DNA of 36,346 nucleotides from an uncultured Prochlorococcus sp. (GTDB lineage: Bacteria; Cyanobacteriota; Cyanobacteriia; PCC-6307; Cyanobiaceae): positions 1 to 36,346 of the forward strand of contig CACIYC010000012.1 in the NCBI GenBank assembly GCA_902590775.1, read 5' to 3'. The position numbers and the translations under genes were made by a program. Shown piece by piece: positions 20,758 through 25,717 of the stretch. Under the pieces are notes generated by a model. That model did not search any database. It was not told the DNA's origin and saw only the letters and a list, made by a program, of their open reading frames with translations. Each line of letters begins with the position of its first letter. Position 1 is the first letter of the stretch.

Positions 20758-22053
20758 TCAAAGATCAAGACGTTGCCAAATCACATCTAGATTTAATTGA
20801 TGTATTTCTGGACTAAAGCAATTATTGAGTTCTTTCGTGGAGAGGATTTCGGTAATATCTTTATCAGAATCAAGGTTGGCTCGAAAATCACCTGTTTCTG
20901 TATTCCAGGCAGCGTGTGCATGTTTTTGGACTAATTTATAAGCATATTCTCTTTGCATTCCTTTTTCAACAAGAGCTAAAAGGACACGTTGACTAAAAAC
21001 AACTCCACCATAAACATTCATATTTTTTGTCATATTGTTTTTATAGATTCCAAGTTCTTGAATAATTTCACTCATCTCTCTCAACATAAAGTGAAGAGTA
21101 ATAGAGGTATCTGGCAGCATCATTCTTTCTGTAGAACTATGGCTTATATCCCTTTCGTGCCATAGAGCAACATTTTCTAGAGCGGCAATGACATAACTTC
21201 TCAGTACTCTTGCCAGACCACTAATTCGTTCACTACGAATTGGATTCCTTTTATGGGGCATAGCTGAACTTCCCTTTTGTCCTTTTGCAAAACCTTCTTC
21301 TACTTCAAGCACATCTGTTCTTTGAAGGTTTCGAATCTCTGTTGCAAATCTATCTAATGAAGAACCTATCAAGGCAAGTGTTTGTACATAGCTAGCATGG
21401 CGATCTCTAGAAATGACTTGAGTGCTTGCTATATCAGGTGTTAATTCCAATTGAGCACATGCAATTCTTTCTATCTCAGGATCAGTATTTGCATAAGTTC
21501 CCATGGCCCCACTGATTTGTCCGACTGAAATATCTTTTTCTAATTGTTTTAGCCTTTCTTGATTTCTAATAGTTTCAGCTAACCAGCCAGCTAACTTAAA
21601 TCCAAAAGTGATTGGTTCTCCATGTATGGCATGCGATCTACCAATCATGACTGTGTTCTTATGTTCTTGTGCTTTTAATCGGATTGCATCCTCAAGTACT
21701 TTTGTTTCTTTGATTAGTAATTTTACAGAGGCTTTTAATTGCAAAGCTAGTCCAGTATCTAGTACATCACTACTTGTCATTCCAACATGAATGAACCTGC
21801 CTGAGTCTCCAATATTTTCATTTAAATTGGTGAGGAAAGCGATAACATCATGTCGCACTTCTGATTCAATCTCAAGAATACGTTGAGGGTTGAACTTGGC
21901 TTTTTCGCGAATGTCTCTGATCCCAGTTTCAGGAATTTTTCCGAGTTTAAAGTTGGCTTCGCAAGCAGCAATCTCAACATCAAGCCATGATTGGAACTTG
22001 GCTTGATCAGTCCATATTGTTCCCATCTCAGGGAGTGTGTAACGATCAATCAA
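20758..22053 (-). CDS. purB: Adenylosuccinate lyase
   Basis: A 431-residue fumarase/aspartase-superfamily enzyme acting twice in purine synthesis: it splits SAICAR and adenylosuccinate, releasing fumarate. Signatures are HVGMTSSDVLDTGLALQL, the histidine in GRSHAIHGEPITFG, and the catalytic serine loop GSSAMPHKRNPIRSE near residue 262. The start MIDRYTLPEMGTIW is canonical. It lies 19 bases downstream of the small gene at 22073-22300 and was probably transcribed with it. Confidence 0.97.
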   Translation of the reverse strand: MIDRYTLPEMGTIWTDQAKFQSWLDVEIAACEANFKLGKIPETGIRDIREKAKFNPQRILEIESEVRHDVIAFLTNLNENIGDSGRFIHVGMTSSDVLDTGLALQLKASVKLLIKETKVLEDAIRLKAQEHKNTVMIGRSHAIHGEPITFGFKLAGWLAETIRNQERLKQLEKDISVGQISGAMGTYANTDPEIERIACAQLELTPDIASTQVISRDRHASYVQTLALIGSSLDRFATEIRNLQRTDVLEVEEGFAKGQKGSSAMPHKRNPIRSERISGLARVLRSYVIAALENVALWHERDISHSSTERMMLPDTSITLHFMLREMSEIIQELGIYKNNMTKNMNVYGGVVFSQRVLLALVEKGMQREYAYKLVQKHAHAAWNTETGDFRANLDSDKDITEILSTKELNNCFSPEIHQLNLDVIWQRLDL

Positions 22054-22072
22054 AGGAACTTAATTCTTTTTC

Positions 22073-22300
22073 TTAAGCTGATTTTAGTCGCTCATGTTCA
22101 ACTTCCCAATGAATATATTGGCCCCAAGTTTGTTGTCTTACTAAACAGCGCCCTCCTTTACAAGAAATTAATAGAAAAGGTGGCAAATCATTGGGTTGAT
22201 TTTTTAATATGACAAAACTGCCTGGTTGAAACAACTCAAGGATTTTGGCCGCTTTTTGCTTTGGAACTAATTGCAGAAGCCTTGCAGCAGTTCTTTCCAT
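22073..22300 (-). CDS. Conserved small basic protein, unknown function
   Basis: A 75-residue soluble protein, MERTAARLLQLVPKQKAAKI at the start, then a predicted beta-rich part (GSFVILKN and FLLISCKGGRCLVRQQTWG) with two cysteines, ending with a charged WEVEHERLKSA. I recognise no named domain. The pattern of a short helical start followed by strand-forming segments, and its position 19 bases before purB on the same strand, support it being real. Confidence 0.72.
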   Translation of the reverse strand: MERTAARLLQLVPKQKAAKILELFQPGSFVILKNQPNDLPPFLLISCKGGRCLVRQQTWGQYIHWEVEHERLKSA

Positions 22301-22429
22301 TTTTTGAGGTTCTTAGAGTTGTACTCAATACGTCCTTAAGGGATGTATAGAATAGATCTTCTATGAGATTTTGGAAATTCCCTTAGTTCTGCGGTTTTTA
22401 TTCGGTTTTTTGTTTGCTTATATGACGGT

Positions 22430-23596
<1,167 letters not shown>

Positions 23597-23610
23597 TTAA
23601 TAAGGTTTTC

Positions 23611-23838
23611 TCAGATTTTGCTACAAGCTGTAATTGAAGGTACGGAATTTATTATTAATCCAGCCTGATTTGCATCATTAGCAAGCATTTCTGCATCGCT
23701 TTTACTTAAAACAACCTTTTGAGATGAAATATTTTCCCAATCGCTAGTTTCGAAATGAGTTTGTAGCCAAAGCATTCCATGAATGCTGGTAACCCTTATG
23801 TGAGTTTGATTAGCAGAAGGAACTAGCCAAAGATCCAT
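23611..23838 (-). CDS. Small protein upstream of glnB, unknown function
   Basis: A 75-residue soluble protein starting MDLWLVPSANQTHIRVTSIH, with LWLQTHFET and a C-terminal part VLSKSDAEMLANDANQAGLI that looks helical. I recognise no domain. I chose the ATG at 23838; an in-frame ATG at 23862 would add eight mostly charged residues encoded by a purine run, and that codon overlaps the expected -10 position of the NtcA-type promoter. Same strand as glnB, 41 bases upstream, so the two probably form one unit. Confidence 0.75.
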   Translation of the reverse strand: MDLWLVPSANQTHIRVTSIHGMLWLQTHFETSDWENISSQKVVLSKSDAEMLANDANQAGLIINSVPSITACSKI

Positions 23839-23888
23839 GATTTTTTTTTTACCTTCTACCATTAGTAGTCTTAGGGAGATTATTGTTT

Positions 23889-23902
23889 GTAATTGATGAT
23901 AC
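23889..23902 (-). promoter_or_regulatory. NtcA-type binding site (GTA-N8-TAC)
   Basis: The sequence GTA ATTGATGA TAC is a perfect match to the NtcA consensus palindrome. On the minus strand, about 22 bases downstream, lies TACTAAT (23861-23867), which can serve as the -10 of a class II NtcA-activated promoter. The start of transcription would then fall near 23854, 16 bases before the small gene's ATG. The opposite orientation, towards queF, lacks a -10 at the expected distance. Confidence 0.55.
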
Positions 23903-24035
23903 AGATTTGATTATTTTTTTGAAAAAGATTTCTTTTAAACAGTTGGCTGGTTAAAAAAAATTAATTTGTTTTTAAACTTGTAATTGAGAAATAAAGAATT
24001 ATCTTTTATAAAGTTCTTCTGCTGTAGGGGTTTTC

Positions 24036-24431
24036 GTGGAGAAAAATGATACCGAGCTTTATGGTGAACGATTAATTTCTGAATCAGATATTAGTTGTTT
24101 TCCTAATCCAGCTATGGAGAGAGACTATGAAATTTCAATAGTATTTCCAGAATTTACTTGCCAATGTCCTTTTTCAGGTTATCCAGATTTTGCTGAAATT
24201 CGCTTGTCATATCAGCCATTTCAAACAATTCTAGAGCTTAAGTCTTTAAAGCTTTATATCAATAGCTATCGTTCTATGAAAATTTCGCATGAAGAAGTTG
24301 CAAACAAGATACTGAATGATTTTGTCGTGGCGTCAAACCCTTCTTGGATGCAAATTGAAGCTGATTTCAACCCTAGAGGTAATGTTCATACCGTTGTAAG
24401 AGTAAGTCATGGCTCTAGAAAAACTGTTTAA
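24036..24431 (+). CDS. queF: NADPH-dependent 7-cyano-7-deazaguanine (preQ0) reductase
   Basis: A 131-residue type I (short) QueF that reduces preQ0 to preQ1 in queuosine synthesis. The catalytic cysteine is Cys44 in CQCPFSGYPDFA, with Asp51 as the proton donor. The family motif ELKSLKLYINSYR begins at Glu67. The start is a GTG at 24036, the only usable codon before the conserved region. I looked for a preQ1 riboswitch in the 170 bases upstream and saw none. The gene's end overlaps the end of convergent ccs1 by four bases. Confidence 0.95.
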   Translation: MEKNDTELYGERLISESDISCFPNPAMERDYEISIVFPEFTCQCPFSGYPDFAEIRLSYQPFQTILELKSLKLYINSYRSMKISHEEVANKILNDFVVASNPSWMQIEADFNPRGNVHTVVRVSHGSRKTV

Positions 24432-25717
24432 CTGGTTACAATTACTTTTAAAATTGATGGGAATTGAGTAGCAAATCCTGATAAGTTCCTATTAGATAAA
24501 CCACCAATATGAACTATATTATTATCTTCCTCAGCAATTATCCAAAGTTGCTTTGTTGAGATAATACTAAGAATACTTCCAATTAAAGTAATAGAAAAAC
24601 CAAGATAAACTATTGGAACACCAGGATCATGCTTTATAAGTATACCGCTACTTGGTAATACATTTATGATTTTTAGTTTTTTCTCTCCAATTGGGATTGA
24701 ATCACCACCTGGCCTTGTTACCCCAATAGAATTTCCTTGTTGATTGAAAATCGCTATTGGACCTTGTTCATTTGAAAGTGTTAATAAAAATGGTTCAAAT
24801 GTTTTATCAATTGTAGGAACTAATACTCCCCATACCTGTTGACCAAGCTCATCAATTTTTTGAAGTGGAAGTTGCAACTTTGGACTATTATCTATTTGAA
24901 TTGTTATTGCAGCAAGTGACCAATCAGCTTGATAAATAGTTATTCCTTGAAAGCGCAATGGATGATTGACGCTTATTTCTTTCTTATAGATCTTCTCATT
25001 AATATTGTTACTTATAATAAGATTTGATCTGAATTGTTCTGCCTCACCATTTGGTCCTCTATCAATTTCAAATTGATTGAGTTTTAAATTGATTTTATTT
25101 ATTCCGTCAGGACTTAAAAGGCTTAAAGATCTATCTGGTGCGAGAAATTTTTCTAATCTTTCACCTTTTAAAGCACCAAAAGTAGCTCCAAACATAAGTA
25201 GTATTAGACCAAGATGAACTAAAGGAGGTCCTACTCTTCCTATAACTCCTTTTCGAGCTGCTAATCTAGATGAATTCTTTTTCACTTGCCATCCATAGTT
25301 GATAAGATAATTTTCAACTTTACTTATATTATTAGAAGGTTTATTAACTTTGAAAGTTTGCGAAATCACCAATCTTTGTATTTGCTTAGGATCTTTATAG
25401 TCAACCCAAGCGATTGCTTTTTTTAGTGTTGGCCATTGCCTTCTCCAGCTGCATACTATTAATGATATTGAAAGCCAAAAAATAAGACCTAAAAACCAAA
25501 AGCTTGAATAGACATGATCCAATTGCAGATCAATTAATAAATCACCATTTATCAATCCAAGGAATTTATTGGTTGCAAATTTTGATAAGTAGATTGATGA
25601 TGGTTCGTTTTGAGGAATTGCTGTGCCAATGGCACTTCCAATTGCAATTAAAATAAATAGGACAATGGCCACTTTTAAACTTGCTAACCAATTAATTAGC
25701 CTGCTTAAACCTTTCAT
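24428..25717 (-). CDS. ccs1: System II cytochrome c biogenesis protein Ccs1 (ResB)
   Basis: A 429-residue thylakoid-membrane protein of system II cytochrome c maturation. Three hydrophobic segments lie in the first 190 residues (LKVAIVLFILIAIGSAIG, FWFLGLIFWLSISLIVCSW and PPLVHLGLILLMFGATFGA, the last with a conserved His), then a large lumenal domain and a fourth segment near the end (VYLGFSITLIGSILSIIS). With CcsA it carries haem across the membrane and attaches it to apocytochromes f and c6. It lies four bases downstream of ccdA on the same strand, a functional pair. Confidence 0.94.
   Translation of the reverse strand: MKGLSRLINWLASLKVAIVLFILIAIGSAIGTAIPQNEPSSIYLSKFATNKFLGLINGDLLIDLQLDHVYSSFWFLGLIFWLSISLIVCSWRRQWPTLKKAIAWVDYKDPKQIQRLVISQTFKVNKPSNNISKVENYLINYGWQVKKNSSRLAARKGVIGRVGPPLVHLGLILLMFGATFGALKGERLEKFLAPDRSLSLLSPDGINKINLKLNQFEIDRGPNGEAEQFRSNLIISNNINEKIYKKEISVNHPLRFQGITIYQADWSLAAITIQIDNSPKLQLPLQKIDELGQQVWGVLVPTIDKTFEPFLLTLSNEQGPIAIFNQQGNSIGVTRPGGDSIPIGEKKLKIINVLPSSGILIKHDPGVPIVYLGFSITLIGSILSIISTKQLWIIAEEDNNIVHIGGLSNRNLSGFATQFPSILKVIVTS

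Follow-up and report, generated by a model that had tools for sequence, protein, structure and literature searches.

A stretch of 36,346 nt from an uncultured Prochlorococcus sp., called the window here, holds a gene for a 75-residue protein between an NtcA-type site and glnB, the gene for PII. What is this protein, and what might it do at the head of an apparent PII operon? Our preferred answer, to which we assign a probability of roughly one half as a whole, is that it is a small effector, induced by NtcA, that acts in the PII/nitrogen-assimilation network and has been borrowed by phages.

The promoter ahead of the small gene and glnB

The features of the locus are collected in Table 1. In the window, 41 nt separate the stop codon of the small gene from glnB. 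We drew homologs of the small gene from 28 of 60 relatives, 275 of 400 genomes of the family (183 of the 251 good-quality ones) and the best 80 of 279 confirmed GenBank contigs. Host loci numbered 179, comprising 166 with the small gene and 13 fetched for PipX, DUF1830 or glnB; dropping identical loci left 113 distinct loci. Because the searches return best matches first, this sample favours window-like sequences, and related genomes are not independent.

Table 1 Positions in the window of the small gene, its predicted promoter and its neighbours
Feature	Position	Strand	Remarks
NtcA-type site GTA-N8-TAC, GTATCATCAATTAC	23902-23889	minus	6/6 match
-10 region ACTAATGG	23866-23859	minus	TAAT-G conserved across loci
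Predicted transcription start, A	23854	minus	predicted from column conservation; 16-nt leader
Small conserved gene, 75 aa, core HGMLWLQTHF....W	23611..23838	minus	ATG at 23838
glnB (PII), second gene of predicted operon	23231..23569	minus	PF00543, 4.1e-32
queF, divergent neighbour, context only	24036..24431	plus	TIGR03139, 1.8e-39
tlyA, convergent neighbour, context only	22430..23242	plus	TIGR00478, 7.4e-77

The sequence-only reading had described the NtcA-type site as a perfect palindrome. This is correct for the six defining bases, but the N8 between them lacks symmetry. The sequence GTAN8TAC occurs seven times in the window against 3.7 expected, and 6 of 100 shuffles reach seven. The extended pattern GTAN8TAC-N18..28-TAATRG has three matches genome-wide (in a 1.24-Mb assembly, 67% complete) versus six for a reversed-pattern control. 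Judged from such counts, the site is no better than chance in a single genome; its significance comes from conservation. A site with at least five of the six bases, ending 47-55 nt before the start codon, is present in 112 of the 113 distinct loci (6/6 in 41 of them), and the lone exception, locus L181, has four. As a control, 19 other 9-nt registers each give such a match in 0-4 of the 113 loci. Mean column conservation across these loci is 0.89 at the six site bases versus 0.51 in 25 flanking bases.

The same reading had pointed to TACTAAT about 22 bases downstream. We located it at 23867-23861, 21 nt past the site, with TAATGG at 23864-23859 as the conserved portion. TAATNG lies 24 nt past the site in 94 of the 113 loci and 25 nt past it in 2, and is absent at 18-27 nt in 17, several of which have a TTATAT-type sequence in its place. 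In the columns for the five defined bases of TAATNG, conservation is 0.93-0.97 (113 loci), and the hexamer xxTAAT sits 22 nt past the site. The column at +48 from the site start is an A in 69% of the 113 loci, whereas most neighbouring columns have values of 35-48%. Taking this A as +1 puts the centre of the site at -41.5. A centre at -41.5 with a -10 region about 22 nt downstream is the class II NtcA layout, as the sequence-only reading had proposed along with a start near 23854, here predicted from the favoured A. The literal class II -10 form is TAN3T, which ACTAAT at this locus does not match.

In 100 of the 113 loci, the gene directly downstream of the small gene is glnB, in the same orientation (gap 18-69 nt, median 39 nt). 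queF diverges upstream of the small gene in 98 of the 113 loci, and tlyA converges downstream, likewise in 98. Both the gene order first described (site, 75-residue gene, glnB) and the check proposed for it, conservation of site and order in related strains, thus held up. We infer that the small gene and glnB are cotranscribed from one promoter. An 83-residue frame from 23862 was rejected as the longer form of the small gene; it would begin within the -10 region, and almost all homologs have their initial MD at the position of 23838. A second GTA-N8-TAC, at 23630-23643 in the 3′ end of the small gene, was considered as a separate glnB promoter. It has at least five of six matches in 5 of 100 loci and six in one, and by this comparison is a chance match. 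A further 75-residue ORF, at 22073-22300 on the minus strand of the window, has no Pfam or NCBIfam match.

The promoter is probably ancestral to glnB, because the site persists at glnB copies that lack the small gene ahead of them. Main glnB genes that lack the small gene (L035, L037, L038) or from which it has been relocated (L032, L034, L036) have a site with at least five of six bases in all six loci, 51-120 nt upstream, and in several there is an equally spaced TAATGG-like element. The small gene thus sits between glnB and its probable promoter, an arrangement that insertion or loss of the small gene could each give. Rfam yielded no leader RNA element above threshold across 22000-25500 of the window (best E 0.83), and none in loci L001 and L125 or in L032 and L034-L038, the glnB loci from which the small gene is absent or has moved. 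A glnA/glutamine RNA in the leader is unsupported, given no match above threshold in this region or the loci searched.

The genome of the window encodes NtcA (TIGR03697, 360 bits), which would bind at 23889-23902. In the available part of PMC5767323, Prochlorococcus NtcA is reported to bind GTAN8/9TAC specifically at the glnA promoter in vitro, and glnB to rise strongly in nitrogen-starved MED4 but not to be induced in MIT9313. Nitrogen-starved WH7803 is reported to raise glnB 2.06-fold (PMC9430850, in part). For SS120 treated with azaserine, an excerpt of PMC5451487 gives a 1.35-fold decrease of PII (P 0.08), although NtcA rises. By the SS120 and MIT9313 results, NtcA activation of the promoter does not extend to all strains and conditions. 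It is probably NtcA-dependent, with strain differences. From its place between this promoter and glnB, the small gene would be expected to respond to nitrogen together with glnB.

The small protein and its predicted fold

No Pfam or NCBIfam model matches the small protein at E<=1, and in a Pfam comparison of 55 homologs no match was better than E 0.014. Outside the family Cyanobiaceae, the relatives search recovered no copy in 23 genomes, and there was no credible copy at the class level. One class-level match (G423, E 6e-4, in a 22-residue frame) was dropped as chance. By these searches, the protein represents an undescribed family that is confined to the Cyanobiaceae. Within them, six absences of the gene (G001, G007, G010, G031, G033, G034) are probably assembly gaps, because glnB is also missing or truncated there. 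We found no description of the small gene in a search of the text of papers by phrases and by possibly wrong locus tags. The NtcA regulon lists of Tolonen 2006 and Su 2005 may well include it.

Differences at the three codon positions average 24.9, 17.1 and 38.2 per pair (1,500 pairs of 75-residue genes). Since change is biased to third positions, the ORF is, on this comparative evidence, protein-coding and under constraint. Ten residues are invariant in 24 diverse members: D2, G21, W24, Q26, H28, F29, W34, D55, A59 and G60. The family has a median length of 75 residues and a median pI of 4.9, and we consider that this acidity makes a nucleic-acid role less likely.

AlphaFold2 predicts the order strand-strand-helix-helix-strand-helix-strand for the protein of the window (pLDDT 82.7), in which the first two helices are short and the third is long, and the same core for a phage copy (pLDDT 92.7). 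Among solved structures, both models come closest to the N-terminal domain of T4 UvsW, a domain of the UvsW/XPB fold, with a Z of 5.8 that falls in the uncertain range, where values below 8 may reflect a common arrangement (rmsd 4.6 over 70 residues for the window model and 3.3 over 61 for the phage model; 11-13% identity). With the phage model, this Z of 5.8 compares with 2.3 for the next unrelated entry, and the Foldseek E-value is 1.9. No confident structural relative of the predicted models was found in the PDB. Structural matches in BFVD are mostly small uncharacterised phage proteins (E about 0.01-0.04). Among them are three small uncharacterised Caudovirales proteins, A0A6J5RL21, A0A6J7WT39 and A0A6J5NQW9 (TM 0.64-0.72, E 0.015-0.04, 9-16% identity), which are possibly distant relatives.

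Copies away from glnB and in phages

In 13 of the 113 loci, glnB is not directly downstream of the small gene, yet the site stands in the usual register in every one of them. Five of these relocated copies adjoin amt1, found by tblastn (L024, L025, L179, L180, L184), and four adjoin urease genes, read by eye (L027, L167, L169, L174). No nitrogen gene was recognised near the remaining four (L170-L173). In genome G172 the small gene occurs twice: L168 precedes glnB, and L169 adjoins urease genes. In cyanobacteria, the activity or expression of PII, the ammonium transporter and urease is tied to PII and NtcA. An upstream ORF resembling a sugar epimerase or dehydrogenase is shared by L171-L173, and two matches to the small family each also occur in G209, G238, G254, G275 and G282.

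Some larger-genome relatives without the small gene (L041, L042, L043) have a second PII that is 53-66% identical to that of the window. It lies directly downstream of an amt-like gene in the first two loci and near a divergent one in the third (amt identified by eye). Among genomes that are at least 95% complete, two or more PII matches were counted in 40 of 44 without the small gene versus 14 of 57 with it, a comparison confounded by clade and genome size. The count was made by hand, on the first 76 of 125 genomes inferred to lack the gene and on 62 chosen from the 275 that have it.

Five contigs from uncultivated phages carry the small gene in a scan of 2.9 million viral contigs. Three protein-based viral scans added no further contig, and of the 18 stretches from a broader pattern scan, those that scored as relatives came from these five contigs alone. 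Since two of the five encode an identical small protein, there are four distinct phage versions. A tblastn search with two of the phage proteins gave no match in 50,697 phage records at E<=0.01, and PHROGs gave nothing below E 0.18 for the small protein.

In three of the contigs (L162, L164, L165), the small gene lies within a T4-like replication cluster. Neighbours tested against PHROGs are a clamp loader, RegA, PurS and PurM in L162 and a DNA polymerase in L164; the ORFs of L165 were identified by reading. A manA RNA (RF01745) is found upstream at L162:2691-2885 and L164:2480-2682 (117 and 182 bits). The small gene comes first after this RNA in L162 and second in L164, following a PurS-like ORF. 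The T4-like cyanophage cluster that manA RNA precedes comprises the small gene, a PurS-like ORF, hsp20 and purM. Another contig, L163, has the order psbA, hli, small gene, transaldolase (talC), and L166, at 52% GC, carries a baseplate gene. The psbA, hli, transaldolase and baseplate neighbours also have PHROGs matches.

As a host-type gene inside phage contigs, the small gene qualifies as a cyanophage auxiliary gene. The L162 protein shares 77% identity with its counterpart in Prochlorococcus AH-321-J03 and 75% with the one in HNLC1, so this copy looks like an acquisition from a host. The phage copies have no NtcA-type site in the host register and are therefore expressed by other means. PII was not seen in the phage stretches read. 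An available part of PMC2864571 reports manA RNA as a cis-regulatory riboswitch candidate in cyanophages, and cyanophages have been proposed to exploit NtcA and 2-oxoglutarate (PMC3037559, in part).

Proposed function of the small protein and relation to known systems

The preferred reading can be set out as a mechanism. A class II NtcA promoter, centred at -41.5 with a start at 23854, would drive an operon of the small gene and then glnB, and under nitrogen shortage 2-oxoglutarate-loaded NtcA would raise both. The small protein would be a lineage-specific effector within the PII/nitrogen-assimilation network, most likely one that binds and adjusts either PII or one of its clients (Amt1, urea or ammonium assimilation). 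Such a stand-alone effector could be captured by cyanophages and run from their own promoters, with a manA RNA leader in the T4-like contigs, and the phage-borne copy might then steer the nitrogen supply of the host. We favour a stand-alone effector on PII or a client because nitrogen neighbours recur and because viruses use the gene without the operon. Whether PII or a client, the molecular target is a conjecture.

The conserved promoter and the neighbours glnB, amt1 and urease genes (the last by eye) support the view of the sequence-only reading that the small protein may belong to the nitrogen response. Its further suggestion, a partner of PII or NtcA, fits the gene context, but in a mirror-tree of 92 paired loci (partial r 0.352 with glnB and 0.330 with tlyA) PII was not singled out. 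We also considered a nitrogen-stress protein whose target lies outside the PII network (an enzyme, the antenna or nucleic acid), with adjacency to glnB reflecting promoter sharing and not partnership. We regard this as possible but doubtful. It agrees with a promoter that seems ancestral to glnB, with the copies L170-L173 away from recognised nitrogen genes, with co-divergence that is no stronger for PII than for tlyA and with phages that carry the small gene and have no PII in the stretches read. However, copies that have moved retain an NtcA-type site of their own, and nine of these 13 adjoin amt1 or urease genes. Improbable, in our judgement, is a feedback role within the regulon, in which the protein would modulate NtcA or the step between NtcA and PipX. 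Neither ntcA nor pipX was recognised beside the small gene in the loci read, there is no homology to PipX, and the genome encodes both PipX and NtcA. In favour of this role, the gene is a probable NtcA target, and exploitation of NtcA by cyanophages has been proposed.

Two further explanations fare much worse. The small ORF lies between promoter and glnB at a short median gap and could be a leader that tunes glnB translation, with the peptide itself unimportant. Ten invariant residues, the third-position bias, the copies relocated away from glnB, the phage copies and a confidently predicted fold make this very hard to credit. We give equally little credence to a chance site in an ordinary constitutive promoter. 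Such a promoter would suit the chance-level frequency of the pattern in this genome alone and the lack of glnB induction reported for MIT9313 (PMC5767323, in part), but not a site held in one register in 112 of 113 loci and retained by all 13 relocated copies.

PirA and the GS inactivating factors are described as missing in Prochlorococcus and marine Synechococcus, and PII phosphorylation as missing in Prochlorococcus, in the available part of PMC8092223. A fuller version of the preferred reading, which we hold only tentatively, is that an undescribed picocyanobacterial family is expressed together with PII, has PII or PII clients as its direct target and takes over the role of the missing PirA and GS inactivating factors. 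In this version, unrelated cyanophages captured it several times, and some apparently express it behind manA RNA to seize host nitrogen regulation. A conserved gene in the PII operon is a concrete candidate for nitrogen tuning in picocyanobacteria. Its carriage by phages offers a testable route for the proposed cyanophage use of the NtcA/2-oxoglutarate response (PMC3037559, in part), and manA RNA gains a possible nitrogen-linked cargo gene of host type. Together, these observations suggest that part of nitrogen control has gone unrecognised and has been borrowed by viruses.

Several known proteins invite comparison. T4 UvsW is a helicase, and its N-terminal domain is the nearest structural neighbour of the predicted models, at a Z of 5.8 in the uncertain range. 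CP12 acts on the Calvin cycle, and we know of no sequence relation between it and the small protein. However, the CP12 of cyanophages is likewise a small host metabolic regulator carried by phages (PMC7760959, in part). PipX (PF12058) is also a small cyanobacterial protein of the PII-NtcA network, but the small protein has no PF12058 match (Pfam, E<=1), and PipX is encoded separately in the same genome (L029). The same applies to the DUF1830 proteins (PF08865), which we take to be the family of PirC: the small protein has no PF08865 match (Pfam, E<=1), and a DUF1830 protein is encoded elsewhere in the genome (L030). PirC resembles it in being a small protein of the PII network, one that is reported to be released from PII under nitrogen starvation. 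Kinship with PipX or PirC-type proteins, which the sequence-only reading had brought up, is thus not borne out at E<=1 in Pfam or NCBIfam. PirA is another small PII-interacting nitrogen regulator, here contrasted by description; it is reported to be wholly absent from marine picocyanobacteria (PMC8092223, in part), the home of the small-protein family. A further protein for comparison is NirP1, a protein of about 80 residues that is controlled by NtcA and acts on nitrogen assimilation (PMC10907346, in part). NirP1 is described there by one invariant Cys and three Trp and as not found in Prochlorococcus, whereas in the small family two Trp but no Cys are invariant (24 and 55 sequences). Small nitrogen-control proteins as such were already known; new here are a protein family of putative function in this control, its operon arrangement and its carriage by phages.
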